DNA of 28,421 nt from a virus. The stretch lies in IMG/VR virus record IMGVR_UViG_3300017788_003178, positions 1-28,421 of that record. One strand, written 5' to 3'. The translations under genes and the position numbers were made by a program. Of the stretch, positions 2,070 to 23,169 are shown in pieces; the first letter of the stretch is position 1; every line of letters begins with the position of its first letter. The notes beneath the pieces are model-generated. The model worked only from the letters and a program-made list of their open reading frames with translations, was not told where the DNA came from and ran no database searches.

Positions 2070-2357
2070 ATGAGTATTAATATTAATATAGGATCAAAAA
2101 AAGAAGATAAAAAAAATTTTGAAATAGTTATAGAATTAAAAGATAAAGAAGGAAATCCAACTGGTGTTAAAAAATATTATCAAACAGATGACTCAAGTAA
2201 ATTGCATCAATTTTGGACAAGAAATACTGGAAGTATTAAAAAAAAGAAAAAGAGAAAATCAGAAGCTATTAGCAATAAAGAAGATATAAAACAAGCATTA
2301 AAAGAAGTTGATACCTATACATCCAAAGTGCGTAAGCAAAGGAATTTAGAAGACTGA
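2070..2357 (+). CDS. Hypothetical small lysine-rich protein
   Basis: This 95-residue, highly basic protein has no recognised domain. The N-terminal half (SININIGSKK, FEIVIELKDKEG) looks like short beta strands. A run of nine basic residues with one Lys/Arg switch (KKKKKRK, about residues 57-63) follows, then a helical C-terminus. A strong AGAGGA ribosome site precedes the ATG. Its stop codon overlaps the start of the RNR gene (TGATG), so the two are translationally coupled, and this is the first gene after the structured leader. Possible roles include nucleic-acid binding or an accessory to RNR, but neither is shown by sequence. Confidence 0.7.
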   Translation: MSININIGSKKEDKKNFEIVIELKDKEGNPTGVKKYYQTDDSSKLHQFWTRNTGSIKKKKKRKSEAISNKEDIKQALKEVDTYTSKVRKQRNLED

Positions 2358-5300
2358 TGAAAAAATATACATATGAAGAAGCACTTGATGAATCTATAAA
2401 ATATTTTGGAAATGATTTATCAGCTAGAGCGTTCATTGACAAATATGCGTTAAGAAACGAAAAAAATGAATTATTAGAACTAACCCCTAAAGATATGCAT
2501 AAGAGGATAGCAAAAGAATTAGCAAGAATAGAGAAAAATAAATTTGGAAAACCATTATCAGAAGAACAAATATTTAATTATTTAGATAAATTTAAATGTA
2601 TTATACCGCAAGGAAGTCCTATGTATGGCATAGGAAATGAATATCAATATGTCAGCACTTCTAATTGTTTTGTTGTTGAAAGTCCATTTGATAGTTATGG
2701 TGGTATTTGTCTAACTGATCAAGAAATAGCCCAAATAAGTAAAAGACGAGGAGGAGTTGGCGTAGATATATCAACATTAAGACCAACTGATTCTCCTACT
2801 CATAATTCATCTAGATCAAGCACCGGAACAGCCTCGTGGATGGAAAGATATTCTAATACGATTAGAGAGGTTGGACAATGCGGGCGGAGAGGCGCCCTTA
2901 TGGAGACAATAAGCATTCATCATCCAGATATTTTAATTTTTTCAACAATTAAAAATGATAGCACAAAAGTCACAGGAGCAAATATATCTGTAAGATTGTC
3001 TAATGAATTTTTAGAAGCATTAGAAAAAGATGAAGAATATGAAATTAGGTGGCCAGTAGATTCGGACATACCAGAATATAGTAAAATGATATCTGCAAAA
3101 GAAGTTTGGAATAAAATTATTCATTCTGCTTGGTTAAGAGCCGAACCTGGATTATTATTCTGGGACAATATAATTAATGAAAGCCCAGCAGATTGTTATG
3201 AAGGTTTTAATACTGTTTCCACAAACCCCTGTATTCCAGCAAGTGAATATTTATTGACTAAAGATGGCTATGTTAAATTTGGAGACTGTTACAATAGTGG
3301 TAAAGAACAAACAATAGTAATAGATAACAGGATATCCTATAGGGATAGCAAACAACTAAAAGATAAAGAGCTACCAGAAAATTGGATAATTGATAATAAG
3401 GTATCGGGAACAAAACTTTCACAAGCCAGTCATGTGTTTTTAACAAAAGGTCTGGCTGATATAATTAAGATAACGACATCCAAGGGATTTAGTATTAAAT
3501 GTACACCAGATCACCATATAGCCACAACCGATGGTATGATTGAAGCCAAAGACATTCAGCCAAACCACAATATCTTGATATCTATACCAGATCATAATAA
3601 TACTTCTATCATAAATAAGAAACCAGAAACTACCGAAGAACAGCTAGCAGTTTTAATAGGTTTAATTTGTGGAGATGGAACTTTTGACAAAAAAAGAAAA
3701 AGAGTTCATTTAGATTTTTGGGGCGAAGATAAAGACGAAATGACCATTCTTGTTTGTGGGTTAATTGATCAGCTCTTTGATTCTTTAGGAGAAAGATATA
3801 ATAATAGAAACAGAAAACTTAGTAAATATTTTGTATCAAAAATTAAACAGTCTGATAAAAATAGAATTTCTTCTGCGTGGTTAGCCTATATACTAGAAGA
3901 ATATGGGTATTCAAGAGAAGTTAAACACGATGTTCCAAAATTTATTATGGAAAATTCAAGCACAAACATTGGTAAATTCTTTTTGGCAGGTTTATTTTAT
4001 TGTGATGGATCAGTACAAGGTTCTAATGTTAGCGGTTATACCGTAAGATTATCACAAAGCAATAAACAACTGTTAGAAAAGATTCAATTAATTCTACATT
4101 CTAATGGTATGTTGTTTGGAATATATAATCGTCGTAATGCTCAAAAAAGATTATTACCAGACTCAAATAAGGATCTTAAATATTATAGCTGCAAAGAAAA
4201 CTATGAACTTATTAGTATTTGTGGTAGTGTAGTAAAATATAGAGATACAATAGGATTTTTGTCAACCTATAAAGACATACAGATAAATACTATCAATCAT
4301 AATTTTCAAGTTAAAGAGTCTTTTACTGATGTTGCTGTAAAAACAGAGATATTAGAGCAACAGCCTGTTTTTTGTATAAAAGAGCCTATATCTAGAAGTA
4401 TGATAGTCAATGGTATGTCAGTAAGAAGATGTGGCGAAATACCATTGTGTGCTTATGATTCCTGTCGTTTGTTAGCCATAAATCTATTTCATGCTATGAA
4501 AAATCCATTTGAAAAAAATGCAGAATTTGATTTTGATTTATTATATGAAACTTCTTATATAGCTCAAAGATTAATGGACGATATTATTGATTTAGAAATT
4601 GAAGCTATATCAAGAATAATCAAAAAAATACAAAAAGATCCAGAACCAAATACAATTAAAAATACTGAACTTGATCTCTGGTTAAAAGTAAGAACTAAAG
4701 CACAAGAAGGAAGAAGAACAGGAACAGGAATAACTGCTTTAGGAGATGTGATAGCAGCATTAAATATAGATTATGGCTCAAACGAATCTGTTGAATTTAC
4801 TGAAAAAATATATAAGACACTAAAATTAGGGGCTTATAGGGCTTCTGTAGATATGGCTAAAGAATTAGGACCATTTCCTATTTGGCAAAATGTTTTAGAA
4901 AAAGATAATCCATTTTTACTTAGAATTAAAGAAGAAGCTCCTGAATTATATTCTGATATGTTAAAATATGGAAGAAGAAATATTTCAATATTAACCACTG
5001 CTCCAACAGGAACAGTTAGTATGATGGCTTCTATTTCCGTAAATAATAAAACTTTACATGGCACAACTTCTGGCATTGAACCAGTATTTATGGTCGAACC
5101 ATATACCAGAAGAAAGAAAGGAAATCCAGGGGATTTAAATTTTCAAACAGACTTTGTAGATCAAAATGGAGATCACTGGATGGAATTTAATGTATATCAT
5201 CCAGGTGTAGAATTATGGTTAGAAATAACAAATAATGAAGATTTGAAAAATTGCCCATATATACCAGCGGGAAAAATCAACTGGACTAATAGAGTAAAAT

Positions 5301-5989
5301 TGCAAGCTGCTGCTCAAAGACATGTAGATCATTCAATCTCTTCAACAATAAATTTGCCTAATGAAATAACAGAAAAAGAAGTTAGCAATATATATGTAGA
5401 GTCTTGGAAAAACAACTTAAAAGGAATAACTGTATATAGGGATGGATGTAGAACAGGAGTATTGGTTAAAAAAGAAACAGGAATAATAAAAACAGATGCT
5501 CCAAAAAGACCAGAAAGTTTAAAATGCAATGTTCATCATATAAACGTCAAAGGACAAGAGTATTTTGTTTTAGTCGGCTTATATGAAAATCAACCATATG
5601 AAGTTTTTTCAGGTAAAAATGGTATTATAGATAAAAAAGTTAAAAACGGAAAAATTATCAAGCAAAAAAGAAGTAGATATAAAGCTATCTTCGACGACAA
5701 TACAGAATTATCACCAATTGGAGTTTTTACAACAGACGAAGAAGATACTTTGACTAGATTAATAAGTGCAAGTTTAAGACATGGTGCTGATATATCTTTT
5801 ATTGTGCATCAATTAGAGAAAGCAAAAGGAGATATGCAATCTTTTGCTAAAAGTTTGGTTAGGGCTCTTAAAAAATATATACCAGATAATATGGAAGTCA
5901 AAGGAGAAGAATGTCCAGAATGTGGAAGTGTATTGCATAGACAAGAAGGATGTATAATTTGTAAAAATTGTGGGTTTTCTAAATGTTAA
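2357..5989 (+). CDS. nrdJ: Adenosylcobalamin-dependent (class II) ribonucleotide reductase containing an intein
   Basis: The 1210-residue precursor has about 810 residues of host protein once the intein (residues 292-691) is removed. It should reduce ribonucleotides to deoxyribonucleotides with a B12-generated thiyl radical. Diagnostic pieces are SNCFVVESP (redox Cys104), GGVGVD, the active-site loop STNP/CGEIPL split by the intein, and PTGTVSMMASI with SGIEPVF. The C-terminal cysteine-rich ribbon has CPEC and CKNC pairs. Radical Cys692, Glu694 and second redox Cys703 keep the +2 and +11 spacing of Lactobacillus leichmannii C408/E410/C419. The start overlaps the preceding stop. No small RNR subunit is nearby, consistent with class II. 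Activity depends on intein removal, and the intein C-terminus is abnormal. Confidence 0.95.
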   Translation: MKKYTYEEALDESIKYFGNDLSARAFIDKYALRNEKNELLELTPKDMHKRIAKELARIEKNKFGKPLSEEQIFNYLDKFKCIIPQGSPMYGIGNEYQYVSTSNCFVVESPFDSYGGICLTDQEIAQISKRRGGVGVDISTLRPTDSPTHNSSRSSTGTASWMERYSNTIREVGQCGRRGALMETISIHHPDILIFSTIKNDSTKVTGANISVRLSNEFLEALEKDEEYEIRWPVDSDIPEYSKMISAKEVWNKIIHSAWLRAEPGLLFWDNIINESPADCYEGFNTVSTNPCIPASEYLLTKDGYVKFGDCYNSGKEQTIVIDNRISYRDSKQLKDKELPENWIIDNKVSGTKLSQASHVFLTKGLADIIKITTSKGFSIKCTPDHHIATTDGMIEAKDIQPNHNILISIPDHNNTSIINKKPETTEEQLAVLIGLICGDGTFDKKRKRVHLDFWGEDKDEMTILVCGLIDQLFDSLGERYNNRNRKLSKYFVSKIKQSDKNRISSAWLAYILEEYGYSREVKHDVPKFIMENSSTNIGKFFLAGLFYCDGSVQGSNVSGYTVRLSQSNKQLLEKIQLILHSNGMLFGIYNRRNAQKRLLPDSNKDLKYYSCKENYELISICGSVVKYRDTIGFLSTYKDIQINTINHNFQVKESFTDVAVKTEILEQQPVFCIKEPISRSMIVNGMSVRRCGEIPLCAYDSCRLLAINLFHAMKNPFEKNAEFDFDLLYETSYIAQRLMDDIIDLEIEAISRIIKKIQKDPEPNTIKNTELDLWLKVRTKAQEGRRTGTGITALGDVIAALNIDYGSNESVEFTEKIYKTLKLGAYRASVDMAKELGPFPIWQNVLEKDNPFLLRIKEEAPELYSDMLKYGRRNISILTTAPTGTVSMMASISVNNKTLHGTTSGIEPVFMVEPYTRRKKGNPGDLNFQTDFVDQNGDHWMEFNVYHPGVELWLEITNNEDLKNCPYIPAGKINWTNRVKLQAAAQRHVDHSISSTINLPNEITEKEVSNIYVESWKNNLKGITVYRDGCRTGVLVKKETGIIKTDAPKRPESLKCNVHHINVKGQEYFVLVGLYENQPYEVFSGKNGIIDKKVKNGKIIKQKRSRYKAIFDDNTELSPIGVFTTDEEDTLTRLISASLRHGADISFIVHQLEKAKGDMQSFAKSLVRALKKYIPDNMEVKGEECPECGSVLHRQEGCIICKNCGFSKC
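3230..4429 (+). mobile_element. Intein with LAGLIDADG endonuclease in the RNR active-site loop; non-canonical C-terminus
   Basis: Residues 292-691 (400 aa) of the RNR precursor interrupt the conserved NPCGE loop. Block A starts with Cys292 (CIPASEYLLTKDG). Block B has the T..H pair Thr383/His386 (CTPDHHIATTDG). Two dodecapeptides follow, LIGLICGDG (Asp440) and LAGLFYCDG (Asp550), as in a DOD-type homing endonuclease. Block F/G reads VFCIKEP...MIVNGMSVRR. The host protein resumes with Cys692. Inteins normally end His-Asn; here the last two residues are Arg690-Arg691, although the block itself is otherwise recognisable. The endonuclease motifs look intact. Splicing may be altered or lost, or may use unusual chemistry. 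Confidence 0.9.
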
Positions 5990-15850: not shown

Positions 15851-16677
15851 ATGAAATTAAAGTTTTAGGATTTTGTGGAAAAAAGCAGTCTGGTAAAAAC
15901 ACTTCAGGAAATTATATTTTAGGAATATTTCTTGAAGCTCTAGAAATATCTAAAGAATTTAAAATTACACCTAAGGGAAATCTCTGGGTAAGTGATATCT
16001 TTGGCAATACAGAATATGCTGGAATTTTAGATTTAAATTCTAATTCAATAGCAACAAAAACATTTGCAGAAGAACATATATATCCGTTTATAAAGATATA
16101 TAGCTTTGCTGATTTATTAAAGAAAAATATATGTATTGATATATTGGGATTATCTTATGAAGAATGTTTTGGTAGTGATGAAAAAAAGAATAGTTTAACA
16201 AATTTAAGATGGGAAAATATGCCTGGAATTGATGAACTTCGTATATCCAACGAAAATGCTTTGATGACTGCAAGAGAAGTAATGCAGTTTGTTGGTACAG
16301 AAGTTTTTCGTAAAATGTACAATAATGTTTGGGTGGATGCTACTATGCGACAAATAGAAAAAGATTCACCAAGTATGGCGATTATAACTGATGTAAGATT
16401 TCCAAATGAAGTAGAGGGAATCATGAATTGTCAAAATTATTCAAGCATAATGACAGGGAAAGTTATAAAACTAAAAAGAGACATATATCCAAATGATAAT
16501 CACCCAAGCGAAACCTCTTTGGATACACATGGAGATGAATTTTATTCTTATATTATAGATAATCAAGACATGTCTATACAAGAACAAAATAAGCATGTAT
16601 ATACTTTCTTATCTGATATTGGTTGGATTCCACACCACATTCCAGAAGAATTATTACAGGAACTACCTGTTGAATGA
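15847..16677 (+). CDS. Deoxynucleoside monophosphate kinase (T4 gp1-like)
   Basis: The start is placed at the ATG at 15847, which overlaps the primase stop as ATGA and has GAGGA just upstream; an earlier in-frame ATG at 15784 would lie inside the primase and lacks the family start. The resulting 276-residue protein begins with a P-loop, GFCGKKQSGKNTSG (Lys17, Thr19). Later conserved blocks are FADLLKKNIC, ALMTAREVMQFVGTEVFR and AIITDVRFPNEVEGI, as in phage T4 dNMP kinase (gp1). It should phosphorylate dNMPs to dNDPs and complete the supply chain from dCMP deaminase and RNR to DNA. Substrate range cannot be read from sequence. Confidence 0.83.
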   Translation: MNEIKVLGFCGKKQSGKNTSGNYILGIFLEALEISKEFKITPKGNLWVSDIFGNTEYAGILDLNSNSIATKTFAEEHIYPFIKIYSFADLLKKNICIDILGLSYEECFGSDEKKNSLTNLRWENMPGIDELRISNENALMTAREVMQFVGTEVFRKMYNNVWVDATMRQIEKDSPSMAIITDVRFPNEVEGIMNCQNYSSIMTGKVIKLKRDIYPNDNHPSETSLDTHGDEFYSYIIDNQDMSIQEQNKHVYTFLSDIGWIPHHIPEELLQELPVE

Positions 16678-18698
16678 GCATACCAATAACATATATTCGT
16701 AGTTCATCTTATAGTTCTCATGAAATGTGTGAAATGAAATATTTTGGGGAATATGTACTAGGATGGACTGGACCTCCAAATAAAAAAGCAGATAAAGGAA
16801 CCATTGTCCATAAGGTAATGGAAATCTTAGCCAATGTAAAATTAGCTAGACAAAATGGACTAAATAATTTTGAAGATGATATCATAGGGGAAGTTTTTAA
16901 TCTAGAATTAGACAGTGAAACAGGAAAAAGATTTAGAGATGATGTTCCTTTGATGCTCGCAATCTTCGATAAAATATATGGCCATTATACAAACCAATCA
17001 TCAAATCATATATGGGCACCAGCAGACTATAGAGAAACGTATAAATGGTTGATGAAAGCCATTTCTTATAATAATGGGTCAATGCATCCATTTAACCAAG
17101 AAATAGTTGAACCAGAAAGACATTTCGATATAGAAATGAAACAAAACTGGGCTAAATACGAGTATGATTTAAATGGAGAAAAAATATCTGGCAATCTTAG
17201 ATTAAAAGGAACAATAGATCTAATTACCAAAATAGATAAGACAACACATGAAATTATTGATTATAAAGGACTTCCTCTATATACTAAAATACCAACAATA
17301 AATGGTTGGACGACTATGGGAAATATAAAAGTCGGTGACACGATATATGATAAAAATGGAAATGAGACAAAAGTAATAGGAAAATCTCAAATTAAATATA
17401 AAGATTGTTATGAAATTACATTTGATGACAATAGCTCTGTTGTTTGTGATGATGAACATATTTGGCTTCTTTCAGATGGATCAGAAATAAAAACAGTTGA
17501 CCTATCAGAAAAAGATAAAATAGATGTTACAAAACCTATTTTTTGCAAATATAAAGATTTACCAATAGATCCATATGTTTTAGGTGTTTGGTTAGGAGAT
17601 GGTAGAAATAGAACAGGAGAAATTTCTGGTCAAGATTCTTTTATTTTTAACGAAATAAAAAAACGAGGATATAAAGTTGGCAAAAATATTAGTCAGAAAA
17701 GTTGTCCATCTCATACAATTTTTGGTTTGGTAAATCAACTCAAAAAATTAAATTTATTACACAATAAACATATACCAGATATCTATCTAAGATCGTCAGT
17801 TAAACAAAGACTAGATTTATTAAGAGGACTGATGGATAGTGATGGGTATGCTAATGCCACAAGAAAACAAGCAGTATTTATGAATTGTAATAAAATTTTA
17901 TCTGAAGATGTTAAAAAATTACTTATAACATTAGGACAAAGACCATATCTTTCAAAAACTAAAGCCAATGGATTTGGATTAGAAGTTGATGCTTATCCTA
18001 TATTTTTTAGACCAGTTAATATAAATCCATTTTTACTTCCTAGAAAAGCAAAAAAAATTAAAAAAGAATGGGGACCAGGAAGATCTAGTGTAAGAAAAAT
18101 TACGAAAATTACAAAAATTAAAAAACAATTCACACAATGTATTATGGTAGATAGTCCTACGCATACATATTTATGTACAGAAAATATGATTCCTACACAT
18201 AATACAGGTAAAAGAATAAATTGGGCTACTGGTGAAGAAAAAACTTATGAATATTTACACAAAGATTTTCAGCTTAGGCTATATCATTATGCCCATAATA
18301 TTATTTATCCCCATATTGATAATGTTCTCGTTACTATTTTTTTTATTAATGACGGTGGAGCTTTTACTTTGGCTTTTGGTAAAAACGATATTCCAGAAAC
18401 TGTTAATATGATCAAGGAAAAATTTGAGTATATTAAAAATACAGAACAGCCAAAACCAAATTATACATGGAAATGCAAAAAGTTTTGCCATTTAGGGAAA
18501 CAAACATTTGAAGATACTCATATTAAAGCACTAGAGGCAAAACCAAATAGTAAATTATCAATAATTGGTGAAAAAATGTGCATGTGCGATGAAATAAAAT
18601 ACGCACTTGATTTTAGACCAATAGAAGATGTAATATCTAATATGACAAAAGAATCCTACTCAATATCTAAATATAAAGCTCCTGGGGAAATAGAATGA
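16674..18698 (+). CDS. RecB/Cas4-like PD-(D/E)XK nuclease containing a class 3 intein
   Basis: The 674-residue precursor yields about 362 residues once the intein (199-510) is removed. The mature nuclease has SSYSSHEMCEMKYF, GTIVHKVMEIL (His46), GTIDLI (Asp182), the catalytic IIDYK-TGK (Asp196, Lys198) rebuilt across the intein, and QLRLYHYA. This is the standard order of RecB/Cas4-type nucleases. Cysteines at the N-terminus (Cys19) and C-terminus (WKCKKFC, MCMCDE) could hold an iron-sulfur cluster, as in Cas4, but this is inference. A role in DNA end processing or recombination fits the context. Residues 82-96 come from the 46-bp repeat shared with the recombinase gene. The start overlaps the kinase stop. 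Confidence 0.85.
   Translation: MSIPITYIRSSSYSSHEMCEMKYFGEYVLGWTGPPNKKADKGTIVHKVMEILANVKLARQNGLNNFEDDIIGEVFNLELDSETGKRFRDDVPLMLAIFDKIYGHYTNQSSNHIWAPADYRETYKWLMKAISYNNGSMHPFNQEIVEPERHFDIEMKQNWAKYEYDLNGEKISGNLRLKGTIDLITKIDKTTHEIIDYKGLPLYTKIPTINGWTTMGNIKVGDTIYDKNGNETKVIGKSQIKYKDCYEITFDDNSSVVCDDEHIWLLSDGSEIKTVDLSEKDKIDVTKPIFCKYKDLPIDPYVLGVWLGDGRNRTGEISGQDSFIFNEIKKRGYKVGKNISQKSCPSHTIFGLVNQLKKLNLLHNKHIPDIYLRSSVKQRLDLLRGLMDSDGYANATRKQAVFMNCNKILSEDVKKLLITLGQRPYLSKTKANGFGLEVDAYPIFFRPVNINPFLLPRKAKKIKKEWGPGRSSVRKITKITKIKKQFTQCIMVDSPTHTYLCTENMIPTHNTGKRINWATGEEKTYEYLHKDFQLRLYHYAHNIIYPHIDNVLVTIFFINDGGAFTLAFGKNDIPETVNMIKEKFEYIKNTEQPKPNYTWKCKKFCHLGKQTFEDTHIKALEAKPNSKLSIIGEKMCMCDEIKYALDFRPIEDVISNMTKESYSISKYKAPGEIE
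16916..16961 (+). repeat. 46-bp perfect direct repeat, copy 2 (inside nuclease gene)
   Basis: Identical to 10246-10291 over 46 bases, in the same reading frame (residues 82-96 of the nuclease precursor). The flanks differ at once. It lies about 300 bases upstream of the intein start. Confidence 0.95.
17268..18203 (+). mobile_element. Class 3 (WCT-type) intein with LAGLIDADG endonuclease
   Basis: Residues 199-510 (312 aa) of the nuclease precursor. The first residue is Gly199, not a nucleophile. Block A-like IPTINGWTTMGNIKVGD follows. Block B is DDEHIWLLSDG, with His262 and Trp264. Endonuclease dodecapeptides are VLGVWLGDG (Asp309) and LLRGLMDSDG (Asp390). Block F is QCIMVDSPTHTYLC with Cys489; block G is MIPTHN with Thr508, ending His509-Asn510, followed by Thr511 (+1). 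Trp at B12, Cys at F4 and Thr at G5 plus a non-nucleophilic first residue define class 3 inteins. The joined host sequence, IIDYKTGKRINW, is a normal nuclease motif. Both halves of the element look intact. Confidence 0.93.
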
Positions 18699-19972
18699 AA
18701 TATACTCCTTTACATGTACATTCAGATGCTAGTTTATTAGACGGTCTAAGTCAAACAAGCCAGATTGCACGCCGAACTATAGATATTGATGCAGATGGAT
18801 GTGCATTAACAGATCATGGTAATATTAGTAATTGCGTCTCTTTTCTACAAGAAATGAATAAGGTTAATAAAAAAGCAATCCTTGGATGTGAGTTATATAT
18901 TTGTGATGAGGATGCAAAAATTAGAGAACAATCTAATAGATATTTAGCTCACTTTCCAGTATTAGCAAAAAATACTAAAGGATGGAATAACTTAATAAAA
19001 ATAGTATCTGAATCTAATTCTCCAGAACACTATTATCATAGACCAAGACTTAGTTTAGATCAGCTAAGTAAATATACTAATGGAGATATTATAGGATTTA
19101 GTGGTCATCTTGGTTCTCATATTGCAGATGCTATTTCCAATTATGGAATTCAAGGAGGAATTAAAACAGCTTATCTCTTGCAAGAGATTTTTGGTAAGGG
19201 AAATTTTTGGTTAGAATGTCAATTAATGGATCAAAAAATAACACCTAAACAAATAGATATAACTAAAGCTGTTAGAGAAATAAGTAAAAAAACTGGCATC
19301 CGATGTATAGCTACTCCAGATGCTCATTATGCATATAAGGAAGATGCTATATTACAAAGAATATTATTATGCTCAAATTTAGGAATAAATCTACAAAAAG
19401 GCAGAGATCCTAATTTTGGTATGAGTACGTTTTTTAGATCAGATTGTTTCCATATTCCTTCTTACGAAGAAATGTTAAGCTATGGTCACACCAAAGAAGA
19501 ACTAGAAAATACTAATACTATTCTATCTCAAATAGAAAATTACGATATTTTGAAACCACCAGCACTTAAGCAATTTGAATGTACTGATGGAATGACACCA
19601 GATCAATATTTAAAAAAGCTATGTAGAGATGGTTGGAAAAAATTAATAGCAAACAAAATTCCAAAAAATAAACAACCAGAATATGCAGACAGAATAAAAA
19701 GAGAACTAGAGGTTCTTCAGGGCGCTGGACTATCAAGTTACTTTCTAATTGTACAAGATATTTTAAGTTTTGTAAATAAAAACAATTGGCTACCTGGGCC
19801 TGGAAGAGGTTCTGCTGCTGGTTGTTTGGTATCTTATTTAATTGGCATTACTAAGATTGATCCTATAAAATATGGATTATTATTTGAAAGATTTTATTCA
19901 TATGGACGAAATATTCCTAAGAATATCAGTTTTGATGAAGAAAAATATGAAAAATACATGAAACTGGTGTAA
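18695..19972 (+). CDS. dnaE (5' part): DNA polymerase III alpha (DnaE-type), N-terminal fragment
   Basis: This 425-residue fragment holds the PHP domain and the start of the polymerase palm. PHP metal motifs look complete: LHVHSDAS (His7, His9), LTDHGN (Asp40, His41), GCELYI, YYHRPRLS, SGHLGSH and TPDAHY. The palm motif PGPGRGSAAG (about 367-376) and LLFERFYSYGRN follow, then the frame stops at KYMKLV. The catalytic aspartates are missing and lie in the second fragment at 20719. A homing endonuclease gene sits between. TGGGGA precedes the ATG, which overlaps the nuclease stop. The intact PHP residues could mean a metal-dependent activity; a DnaQ-like exonuclease is also encoded at 25389. Confidence 0.88.
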   Translation: MKYTPLHVHSDASLLDGLSQTSQIARRTIDIDADGCALTDHGNISNCVSFLQEMNKVNKKAILGCELYICDEDAKIREQSNRYLAHFPVLAKNTKGWNNLIKIVSESNSPEHYYHRPRLSLDQLSKYTNGDIIGFSGHLGSHIADAISNYGIQGGIKTAYLLQEIFGKGNFWLECQLMDQKITPKQIDITKAVREISKKTGIRCIATPDAHYAYKEDAILQRILLCSNLGINLQKGRDPNFGMSTFFRSDCFHIPSYEEMLSYGHTKEELENTNTILSQIENYDILKPPALKQFECTDGMTPDQYLKKLCRDGWKKLIANKIPKNKQPEYADRIKRELEVLQGAGLSSYFLIVQDILSFVNKNNWLPGPGRGSAAGCLVSYLIGITKIDPIKYGLLFERFYSYGRNIPKNISFDEEKYEKYMKLV

Positions 19973-20019
19973 TATATTGCGTGTTGCATTTAAATATCTT
20001 TCAAAAAGACACAATATAT
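19972..20019 (+). promoter_or_regulatory. Hairpin before the homing endonuclease start
   Basis: Bases 19972-19979 pair with 20012-20019 (8 bp). After a 2-base bulge on the left, 19982-19985 pair with 20008-20011 (4 bp, one wobble). The hairpin ends one base before the ATG at 20021 and covers the place where a ribosome site would be. No clear Shine-Dalgarno sequence is exposed. Such a structure could restrict translation of the endonuclease. Confidence 0.45.
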
Positions 20020-20020
20020 A

Positions 20021-20731
20021 ATGATAAAATATAAATGTAAATATTGCAAAAAAATATTCGAGAATTATCCTAGTAGAAAATCTATCTATTGTTCTTTAGA
20101 TTGCTCAATATTAAGTAACACTAGATTGCCTAATAATCTCTTTGATATTGAATCATACGATGCTTGTTATTGGTTAGGATTTTTATTTGGAGATGGTTGT
20201 GTAGATACTAAGGGTAAATTGCAAATATGTCTATCTATTAAAGATATAGATCATCTATATAAATTTAATAATTTTATCTTTTCTAGAAATATTAATGCTG
20301 TAAATAAATATAAAGATAGATGTATCATACAAGTTAATTCTAAAAACTTGTGTAAAAATTTAGAAAAATATAATATAATACCTAATAAAACAAAAACTTC
20401 TCTTATTGTTTTACCTCAATCAAAATATATTAACCATTTTATTAGAGGGCTATTTGATGCTGATGGTTGGGTTTTTAAAAAGGAATATAAAAATAATAAA
20501 GGATATAAGTATTATAAGTATTGTTGCGGTATTTGTTCTTATTTAAAAGAAAATTTAGAAATTATAAACAATCAATTACCAATACATGGTATTATTTCAA
20601 GAAAGAAAACACAAGAGTTATATGAGTTAAGATTTCAAAGCAAGCAAGATATAAGAAAAATTAAAACATTCTTATATCAAGATTCTTTAACTTCATTACA
20701 TCGTAAAAGGATATTAATGTGTTCAATTTAA
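20021..20731 (+). mobile_element. LAGLIDADG homing endonuclease gene inserted in dnaE
   Basis: This 236-residue protein has an N-terminal zinc-finger-like segment (YKCKYCKKIF and YCSLDC) and two LAGLIDADG dodecapeptides, CYWLGFLFGDGCV and HFIRGLFDADGWV, with both key Asp residues. It therefore looks like an active double-motif endonuclease. There is no Hint/intein domain, so it is not an intein. It separates the two halves of the polymerase gene. Its last 13 bases overlap the second half, and its coding sequence contains the AAAGGA used as the ribosome site for that half. The flanking space is too small for a group I intron core, so it is best read as a free-standing insertion. Confidence 0.88.
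20706..20711 (+). promoter_or_regulatory. Ribosome binding site for the second DnaE fragment
   Basis: AAAGGA lies seven bases before the GTG at 20719 and inside the homing endonuclease coding region. It supports GTG rather than a distant ATG as the start of the downstream polymerase half, and indicates separate translation of the two fragments. Confidence 0.6.
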
Positions 20732-23169
20732 GAGAATTAACTGATGAATTTTGTTCTGAAAGACTAGAAAAAGTAAAAGATAATAAATTTTTTATAGAAG
20801 AATGTAATATAGTTGAATCTATGCCAAAAGGTATAGAATATTATAAACATATTATTAATAATATTGGTTTAGATACAAATAATAAGAAAAATAGTTATAT
20901 TATGTGGATATGTGGTAAAGTTGAAAAGCTAGATACAAACAAAAAAGTAGACTTTTCAAACGCCCGTATTTCAATGCCAGATATTGATGTTGATATTCCT
21001 ATTCAACACCGTGGAGATATTATAGAATATATTACTAATAAATATGGTACTGATCGTGTTTCTCAAATGATAACATACCAAAAGATGAAAGGCGCTAAAG
21101 CTTTAACAGAAGTATTTAGAGCTTATGGAGATACTTCATTTGAAGAAATAAAAGAAATAACTAAGAATATAGTTGAAGAAGCTAAGATTGCAGACCAATT
21201 ACAAGAAATGGAAGAACCATCAATTATAAGATGGTGTTTAGAAAATAAGAAGAAAGATTTTAAGGATTGGTGTGAAATAGACGAAGAAGGAAATTTAACA
21301 GGACAATATGCTGATAGATTTTCTCTTGCAATTAGACTCGAAGGAACTAAGTCTGCACAATCTAAACATGCTGCTGGTATAGTTATTTCACCAATACCAT
21401 TATCTGAAATGTGCCCTATGGTATATGATTCTAAAACTAAAAAACAAGTAGCAGGAATGGAAATGAATGACTTAGAAGCTATAGGGCTTATTAAGTTAGA
21501 TATTCTTGGTGTCGCTATGTTAGATAAAGTTATGTGTGTAAGAGATCTATTAAAAGTTAAAGGAATAGATTTTAATCTAGATATAGAAGAAATACCTTTA
21601 GATTGCGAAAGAACATGGGCATTATTTGCAGAAGGAAATACTAAGGGCGTTTTTCAATTAGAGTCAAGACTTGGACAAATGCTATCTAAAGAATTAAAAC
21701 CAGAAAATATGGAACACTTAGCTGGATTGGCCAGCATTATGCGTCCAGGGTCTTTAGAGGCTAAAAAAGAAGACGGTAAAACAGTTACAACTCATTATAT
21801 TGAAAAAAAGAATAATAAAGAACCAGTAACATATATCAGTGACTCTTTAAAAGAAATATTAGATAGTTCTTATGGAGAAATGATTTATCAAGAACAGGCC
21901 ATGGCTATCGCTCAAAAAATAGCCGGATTCGATCTTAAACAGGCCGACATTTTGAGAAAAGCTATTGGTAAGAAAAAACCAGAAATCATGGCGGCATTGA
22001 AAGAGGAATTTTTAGAAGGATGTAGAAAAACAAATCTTGTAAATGAAGAGGTGGCTCACACTTTATTTAATTGGATAGAAAAGTCCCAAAGATATTCTTT
22101 TAATAAGAGTCATGCTGTTAGCTATGGTTTCAATGCATATTTAAGTGCTTATTGCAAGGCTCATTATATCAAGGAGTTTTTTACCGCATATTTAAAGTTT
22201 TCTCATGATAAGATTAAACCGCAAAAAGAAATATATGAACTGGTTAATAACGCAAAAGCTATGGATATTTGGATTATGCCTCCAAATATCAAAAACTTAA
22301 ATGATGAATTTGAACTTATCAACGATAAAATATATTTTGGTTTGTGTGATATTAAGAATGTTGGAAAGTCTGTAGTTGATAAACTAAGAGCTTGTACTAA
22401 AGAAATAGAATGTAAGCTTAATAAACAAATAAAAGATTGGAATTGGATTGATTTTTTAATATTTCTATCTACAGAAATCAAAGTAAATTCATTAGAGTCT
22501 TTGATTTATGTAGGAGCATGTGATTGTTTTGGGAAAACCAGAAGTTCCATGATATTTGAATGTAATTTATTTAGAAATCTTAGTAATAAAGAATTAGAAT
22601 GGATACAAAATAATTGTAAAGATTGTAAGAATTTTAATGAAATTTTAAATAAGATGATATCTTCTGGAAATGAAAACAATAAGAATAAAGCTTATCATAA
22701 TACTAAAAGATTAGAAGCTATAAAAGATATTCAAGTTTCTTTGAAAAATCCCCCTTCTGATTTAAATGATAAGCCGCATCAGATATCACAATTAGAATAT
22801 GAATTACTAGGCGTTAATATAACGGCTCATGGATTAGATGAATCCAATACAAAATATAAAGCTAATTGCACATGTCAAGAATATGCTCAAGGATACGGAA
22901 AAAATAAAGATATACCTGTAGTAATAGCTGCGAAAATAGACTATGTAAGAAAAATAAAAACTAAAAATGGATTGAACCCAGGACAGGAAATGTCTTTTAT
23001 AGAGATAAGTGATGAAACAGGGACAATAAATTCTTTAGTTTTATTCCCTGACCAATGGGACGAATATAAACATATGGTTGTTGAAGGAAATCGTTTGTTG
23101 TTTTGCGGCAAAAGAAGTTCAAATAAAGAAAAAGATTCTTATATAATAGAATTAGTAGAACAATTATAA
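20719..23169 (+). CDS. dnaE (3' part): DNA polymerase III alpha (DnaE-type), C-terminal fragment
   Basis: This 816-residue fragment starts at GTG. After about 80 residues it has ISMPDIDVDIP, with catalytic aspartates equivalent to E. coli Asp401/Asp403 (here Asp90 and Asp92), and the third at LIKLDILG (Asp261). DNA-binding fingers (SQSKHAAGIVISP, SFNKSHAVSYGFNAYL), a helix-hairpin-helix-like YFGLCDIKNVGKS and a C-terminal OB-type region (SLVLFPDQWDEY, ending IELVEQL) follow. Fragment one supplies PHP and GRGSAAG, so the two must associate to form the palm. The GTG start and AAAGGA lie in the end of the endonuclease gene. Likely phage replicase. Confidence 0.9.
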   Translation: MFNLRELTDEFCSERLEKVKDNKFFIEECNIVESMPKGIEYYKHIINNIGLDTNNKKNSYIMWICGKVEKLDTNKKVDFSNARISMPDIDVDIPIQHRGDIIEYITNKYGTDRVSQMITYQKMKGAKALTEVFRAYGDTSFEEIKEITKNIVEEAKIADQLQEMEEPSIIRWCLENKKKDFKDWCEIDEEGNLTGQYADRFSLAIRLEGTKSAQSKHAAGIVISPIPLSEMCPMVYDSKTKKQVAGMEMNDLEAIGLIKLDILGVAMLDKVMCVRDLLKVKGIDFNLDIEEIPLDCERTWALFAEGNTKGVFQLESRLGQMLSKELKPENMEHLAGLASIMRPGSLEAKKEDGKTVTTHYIEKKNNKEPVTYISDSLKEILDSSYGEMIYQEQAMAIAQKIAGFDLKQADILRKAIGKKKPEIMAALKEEFLEGCRKTNLVNEEVAHTLFNWIEKSQRYSFNKSHAVSYGFNAYLSAYCKAHYIKEFFTAYLKFSHDKIKPQKEIYELVNNAKAMDIWIMPPNIKNLNDEFELINDKIYFGLCDIKNVGKSVVDKLRACTKEIECKLNKQIKDWNWIDFLIFLSTEIKVNSLESLIYVGACDCFGKTRSSMIFECNLFRNLSNKELEWIQNNCKDCKNFNEILNKMISSGNENNKNKAYHNTKRLEAIKDIQVSLKNPPSDLNDKPHQISQLEYELLGVNITAHGLDESNTKYKANCTCQEYAQGYGKNKDIPVVIAAKIDYVRKIKTKNGLNPGQEMSFIEISDETGTINSLVLFPDQWDEYKHMVVEGNRLLFCGKRSSNKEKDSYIIELVEQL

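Follow-up and report, generated by a model that had tools for sequence, protein, structure and literature searches.

In a 2014 review, the C-terminal residues of inteins are confined to Asn, Gln, Asp and Glu (PMC4031507), and cyclisation of Asn (or of Gln, Asp or Glu) is the one release step common to classes 1 to 3 in the reviews consulted. In the canonical third step of splicing, the Asn at position G:7 acts as nucleophile, with the His residues at G:6 and F:13 as helpers (PMC4031507). The inteins of the Chilo iridescent virus ribonucleotide reductase (RNR) and of the Pab and Mma Pol II, with C-terminal Gln or Asp, have no terminal Asn and yet splice (PMC4031507), their side chains cyclising as that of Asn does. 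Class 3 inteins have no N-terminal nucleophile and keep the Asn; they provide a precedent for mechanistic variants arising from single events, with a proposed phage origin. Bacterial intein-like (BIL) domains possess the HINT fold but no +1 nucleophile, and those of type B have no similarity to block G. Among the inteins of RNRs, those inserted at the NP/CGE site (the slash marks the insertion point) and ending in Asn or Gln are represented by PRK08332/NF006207, an intein-containing vitamin B12-dependent RNR, while the SPbeta BnrdE intein and its relatives lie in class I RNRs at an NL/C site and end in TGN or TGQ. A study of phage inteins with altered residues concerned the penultimate position only (PMC5050341). 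No report of an Arg-ended intein was found in the literature searched, which left subscription journals mostly outside and is weak evidence of absence.

The window, which is the whole stretch of DNA analysed here (28,421 nucleotides), is a 28.4-kb viral contig. Its plus strand carries at 2357-5989 one open frame of 1210 amino acids encoding NrdJ, a class II (adenosylcobalamin-type) RNR with an in-frame intein, in which Pfam identified Ribonuc_red_lgC (the barrel domain, 6.6e-75), Ribonuc_red_lgN and TSCPD. The N-extein (2357-3229) ends in VSTNP. The insert of 400 amino acids (3230-4429), which reads CIPASEY...MIVNGMSVRR with zero stops in translation, is placed precisely at the junction of Pro and radical Cys in NP/CGE. 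Because 23 related viral RNRs that have no insert run on as ...STNP/CSEIPL, both boundaries are exact by homology and the Arg-Arg lies inside the insert. The C-extein with its stop codon (4430-5989, 519 amino acids, beginning CGEIPL) comprises the rest of the RNR barrel, TSCPD and a C-terminal Cys-rich tail; the DSCRLL Cys and the C-terminal CxxC motifs were found in it, and its relatives in IMG/VR show 51-55% identity. The first-pass annotation had claimed that the intein ends in Arg-Arg right before the radical cysteine, and this is borne out: Arg399-Arg400 of the intein (R690-R691 of the ORF) are encoded by AGA AGA at 4424-4429, where His-Asn is expected, and are followed by TGT at 4430-4432 for Cys+1 (ORF Cys692), the radical cysteine of NPCGE. 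We assign a probability of roughly 0.6 to the reading that this insert belongs to a conserved family of phage inteins at the RNR radical-cysteine site, here called RR inteins, which would begin splicing in a class 1-like manner and have their C-terminal bond cleaved without cyclisation of Asn, Gln, Asp or Glu.

The residues of the N-terminal side and of the endonuclease, which the first-pass annotation had listed as intact, were all located in the ORF. They are the N-terminal nucleophile Cys1 (ORF Cys292, 3230-3232), the block B Thr92 to His95 (TPDH, ORF Thr383 and His386, 3503-3514) and two LAGLIDADG motifs, GLICGDGTF and GLFYCDGSV (3650-4060; Pfam LAGLIDADG_3, 6e-16). The acidic residues of the latter, D149 (3674-3676) and D259 (4004-4006), are conserved in 12/13 and 13/13 members of the RR alignment, and the window intein has both the two motifs and the acidic residues that define a LAGLIDADG homing endonuclease. 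Block F (4367-4396) includes Val380, Cys382 (F:4), Glu385 and Arg389. A third step-3 residue, absent from the earlier list, is also altered here, as Arg389 (ORF Arg680) stands at the usual place of the block F His. The model TIGR01445 (intein_Nterm) matched with 37.1 bits against a cut-off of 24.5; TIGR01443 (intein_Cterm) gave no match in the four RR members tested and none in one of two controls ending in His-Asn.

The window intein, extended by 15 flanking residues at either end, was modelled with AlphaFold2 from a 22-sequence alignment, with a pLDDT of 89.4 and a pTM of 0.89. Solved inteins matched the model with overall Z scores of 17-27, including whole-chain matches to TliVMA (27.4), PI-PfuI (24.4) and NrdJ-1 (20.6); the Ssp DnaB intein (1mi8) matched with a Z of 21.1 and 1.7 A over 139 residues, and I-DmoI with a Z of about 17. 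In this model the HINT splicing domain and the nested LAGLIDADG endonuclease are both intact in fold. R400 is predicted to occupy the usual place of the cyclising Asn, since model residue 415 (R400) is the last one aligned, opposite the terminal Asn of solved inteins, namely N440 of Mtu RecA, N198 of Mxe GyrA and N454 of PI-SceI.

The insert combines an in-frame position in a gene whose uninterrupted homologue is intact with a HINT domain bearing Cys1 and the block B Thr and His. At +1, where class 1 has Cys, Ser or Thr, all RR members have Cys, whereas the cyclising Asn, Gln, Asp or Glu of that class is replaced by Arg400 in all of them. Class 3 does not fit, as Cys1 is present and, at the second residue past the block B His (I97), the family has Ile, Phe or Leu where the WCT motif of class 3 (Trp B:12, Cys F:4, Thr G:5) calls for Trp; Cys F:4 is shared with that class, although the departure is at the opposite end, with Cys1 kept and the Asn gone. 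BIL domains have the same fold, but the RR family conserves Cys+1 and the LAGLIDADG endonuclease. Judged by its sequence and predicted fold, its site and its N-side chemistry, the insert is best classed as an intein that departs from class 1 at the C-terminal residue and does not belong to class 3. In site, Cys1, block B Thr and His, LAGLIDADG motifs and Cys+1 it resembles the NP/CGE inteins ending in Asn or Gln, and the window aligns to positions 854-1255 of NF006207 (E 1.5e-28); the differences are the Arg-Arg and the basic residue in place of the block F His. The terminal Arg differs likewise from the Gln or Asp of the Chilo iridescent virus, Pab and Mma inteins, as it has neither carboxamide nor carboxylate.

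Whether Arg-Arg recurs in NrdJ inteins at the same site, a question raised with the first observation, can be answered in the affirmative, as it was found in 17 other distinct contigs. IMG/VR was scanned by pattern for class II RNR loci with a non-Pro residue before the radical Cys, and a CRN-codon scan was added. The two pattern scans gave 64 distinct intein ends at the NP/CGE site: 50 Asn, 9 Gln, 3 Arg-Arg, 1 Arg-Asp and 1 Arg-Gly. The three Arg-Arg cases (L037, L076 and L081) are homologous to the window intein, and a further one (L110) is on a short contig of a bacterial metagenome-assembled genome (MAG). A profile built from four members retrieved more loci, every one ending in Arg-Arg. 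A block F/G pattern with the +1 residue left open matched 17 stretches in IMG/VR, all in RNR genes and all reading RR/C; the pattern demanded V-[FY]-C in block F, and other types would escape it. The unbiased test was a scan with the alignment from which the last 20 residues had been removed, hence blind to the ending, and it returned 17 loci, with RR/C in 17/17 and three of the contigs (L164, L165 and L168) new. In total, 18 distinct members including the window are known, 17 on viral contigs and one on the MAG contig, all at the RNR NP/C site and all RR/C, with pairwise identity down to 25% among the 13 members first aligned. The MAG with L110 belongs to a phylum of which 391 other genomes were checked, and they contained no RR intein. 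With family members as tblastn queries none came to light in phage isolates or plasmids either, though not all hits were followed to their end. P0002 as the lone query found zero relatives in IMG/VR and genome contigs, whereas C-extein, site-pattern and alignment queries succeeded.

The nearest outgroup by profile is the SPbeta BnrdE intein with its relatives, whose full-length homology is about 25-29% and which differ in site and ending and, in SPbeta, by an Asp at F:4. The HMM that excludes the last 20 residues separates the RR family, with its members far above these next relatives ending in GN; L028, an SPbeta-type outgroup, scored 186, compared with scores above 390 for those RR members that the profile covers for the greater part of their length. 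Arg-Arg as a general trait of RNR inteins was ruled out, as the class I NL/C relatives end in GN or GQ and most NP/CGE inteins in Asn or Gln. Since the related class I inteins end in this way, the sequences indicate that in this lineage Arg-Arg goes with the radical-cysteine site. When the last 20 residues were left out of the phylogenetic tree, RR clades of 13 and 4 members each received strong support, and their union was not well supported, so that a single origin of the family is not shown by the tree. Whether or not both clades form one group, the Arg-Arg ending has been kept over long divergence. Other endings and sites were also encountered. L095 (3429 region), a small RNR intein at NP/CGE, ends in Arg-Gly/Cys, and L077 (minus strand), at the same site, ends in Arg-Asp/Cys; both share the penultimate Arg of the RR family. 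Many Woesearchaeota RNRs (genome contigs L100-L119) read ESTDS/CGEQPL, with Ser instead of Pro before the radical cysteine and no intein there.

The junction residues that never vary among the 17 full-length members are Cys1, Thr92, His95, Val380, Cys382, Glu385, Arg399, Arg400 and Cys+1. All members have Arg at G:6 and a basic residue at the block F His position, 389, where 16 of the 17 have Arg and one has Lys; L037 also has Lys. Cys382 and Glu385 are no marker of mechanism, because they occur also in some Asn- or Gln-ended inteins at the NP/CGE site. The codons at the junction vary, with AGA, CGA, CGT and CGC for R399 and AGA, AGG and CGA for R400. Lys, which is one mutation away from AGA and does occur at 389, was found at neither 399 nor 400 in any of the 19 tabulated rows. 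This argues for a guanidine-specific role rather than for mere charge or a generic dibasic protease site.

The same observation bears on a protease-assisted route, in which Cys1 would form the N-extein thioester, a trypsin-like or dibasic protease of host or phage would cut after Arg-Arg, and Cys+1 would ligate as in native chemical ligation. RR/C is a classic dibasic cleavage site, and the retention of the N-side catalytic residues and Cys+1, with Asn and His gone on the C-side, is what such a route would leave. However, proteases of this kind accept Lys, the replacement of the block F His by Arg or Lys389 would be needless for a protease site, and the model places the junction in the middle of the folded HINT domain. 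Cytosolic dibasic proteases are, moreover, rare in bacteria, and we consider this route unlikely. Two candidates that would restore an Asn were considered. Cleavage at the internal Asn-Gly (N394-G395) was rejected, as GMSVRR would then remain ahead of the radical Cys and as two full-length members have Asp or Glu in place of N394; a junction Asn hidden by a frameshift is unsupported, as the +1 frame there has TAG and TAA stops.

A decayed intein end had been offered in the first-pass annotation as one explanation, with splicing dead and the endonuclease persisting; the ending might also be an assembly error. That single copies may be broken or mis-assembled is seen in L037 (minus strand, oriented about 2623-4492), whose N-half and C-half are in different frames through either an endonuclease frameshift or an assembly error. 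Both explanations are contradicted by the remaining evidence. Arg-Arg is invariant in 18 mostly highly divergent members, and RR/C recurs in the other contigs with different synonymous codons. In the close pair L141/L148, dN/dS was 0.098 for the splicing domain, 0.079 for the endonuclease and 0.04 for the C-extein, which indicates purifying selection on the splicing domain and the C-extein; this argument leans mainly on L141/L148 as the sole unsaturated close pair, the other, more diverged pairs giving roughly 0.1-0.6 with synonymous sites often near saturation. Together with the lack of a second detected RNR large subunit in large contigs, these results make decay or assembly error very unlikely. 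The intein dS of the same pair (0.63) is well below that of the C-extein (2.0), which fits homing transfer.

Viral contigs of 340, 208, 194, 164 and 138 kb each gave a match to the RNR barrel family (class I/II large subunit) at the interrupted gene and nowhere else, although all members are metagenomic, their contigs may be incomplete and a second RNR may lie elsewhere in those genomes. A gene that persists as the one copy detected, with an insert right at its radical cysteine, must be rejoined to be useful, and this is the main ground on which we infer that RR inteins splice, presumably without a helper. Failed splicing, another of the earlier suggestions, is accordingly unlikely given the conserved RNR extein, and the unusual splicing route proposed beside it is the branch left standing. 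The halves might instead be used without ligation, the intein cutting itself out, or cutting at one side only, and the RNR halves assembling non-covalently with the C-half starting at the radical cysteine. Split phage RNR genes have been reported, of which Aeh1 nrdA is functional (PMC3653736), and type B BIL domains cleave without splicing (PMC4031507). We find this improbable, since Cys1 and Cys+1 are both invariant and would be needless for pure cleavage (Cys+1 being also the radical residue), the insertion lies exactly at the radical cysteine, and an Asn-free C-terminal cleavage would remain to be explained.

For autonomous splicing of RR inteins, the residues of class 1 steps 1 and 2 are all in place. 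Cys1 would undergo an N-S acyl shift aided by the block B Thr and His, and transfer to Cys+1 would follow. In step 3, R389 of block F, R399 and R400 would stand in for the two step-3 histidines and the terminal Asn. In the preferred version of the release, the guanidine of R400 would attack its own carbonyl and give a six-membered delta-lactam instead of the Asn succinimide, while R389 and R399 would lower the pKa of this guanidine and stabilise the oxyanion. The arginine delta-lactam is known from peptide synthesis, where it forms in a side reaction. The low nucleophilicity of arginine, whose guanidinium pKa is near 13.8, counts against attack by R400, and we know of no enzyme or intein shown to cleave its own backbone via an Arg side chain. 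In a close alternative, Arg would assist an N-S acyl shift at Cys+1, and the amine would then attack the N-extein thioester directly; this route would require no cyclising residue and seems nearly as plausible as the lactam. By either version, the route to the completed protein is probably one that the literature searched does not contain.

The Arg cluster might also serve regulation, with Arg-Arg blocking step 3 until a signal arrives (a nucleotide or phosphate on the cluster, or a phage cofactor), which would make RNR activity conditional. Arg clusters bind phosphates, and the RR family is found only in RNRs. Altered step-3 residues have been proposed to tune splicing in phages (PMC5050341). 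An arrested intein would still require an Asn-free release chemistry, however, and we hold this possibility to be quite unlikely. If the preferred reading is true, a conserved family with no cyclising residue would represent another solution to the often rate-limiting step of protein splicing, and it could supply a new protein-ligation tool whose release step is controlled independently.

Two further interrupted genes are found on the plus strand of the window. The DNA polymerase III alpha gene (18695-23169) is divided into two ORFs (18695-19972 and 20719-23169) that flank one for a LAGLIDADG endonuclease (20021-20731); this split gene matched no Rfam intron family, and the arrangement is either an intron or a gene split. 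A second intein of 312 amino acids (17268-18203) lies in ORF 16674-18698, a PD-(D/E)XK nuclease gene. It starts with Gly and ends in THN/T. Its Trp at the second position past the block B His, its Cys at F:4 and the Thr preceding the His-Asn make up the WCT signature of class 3, for which its missing Cys1 is ordinary.
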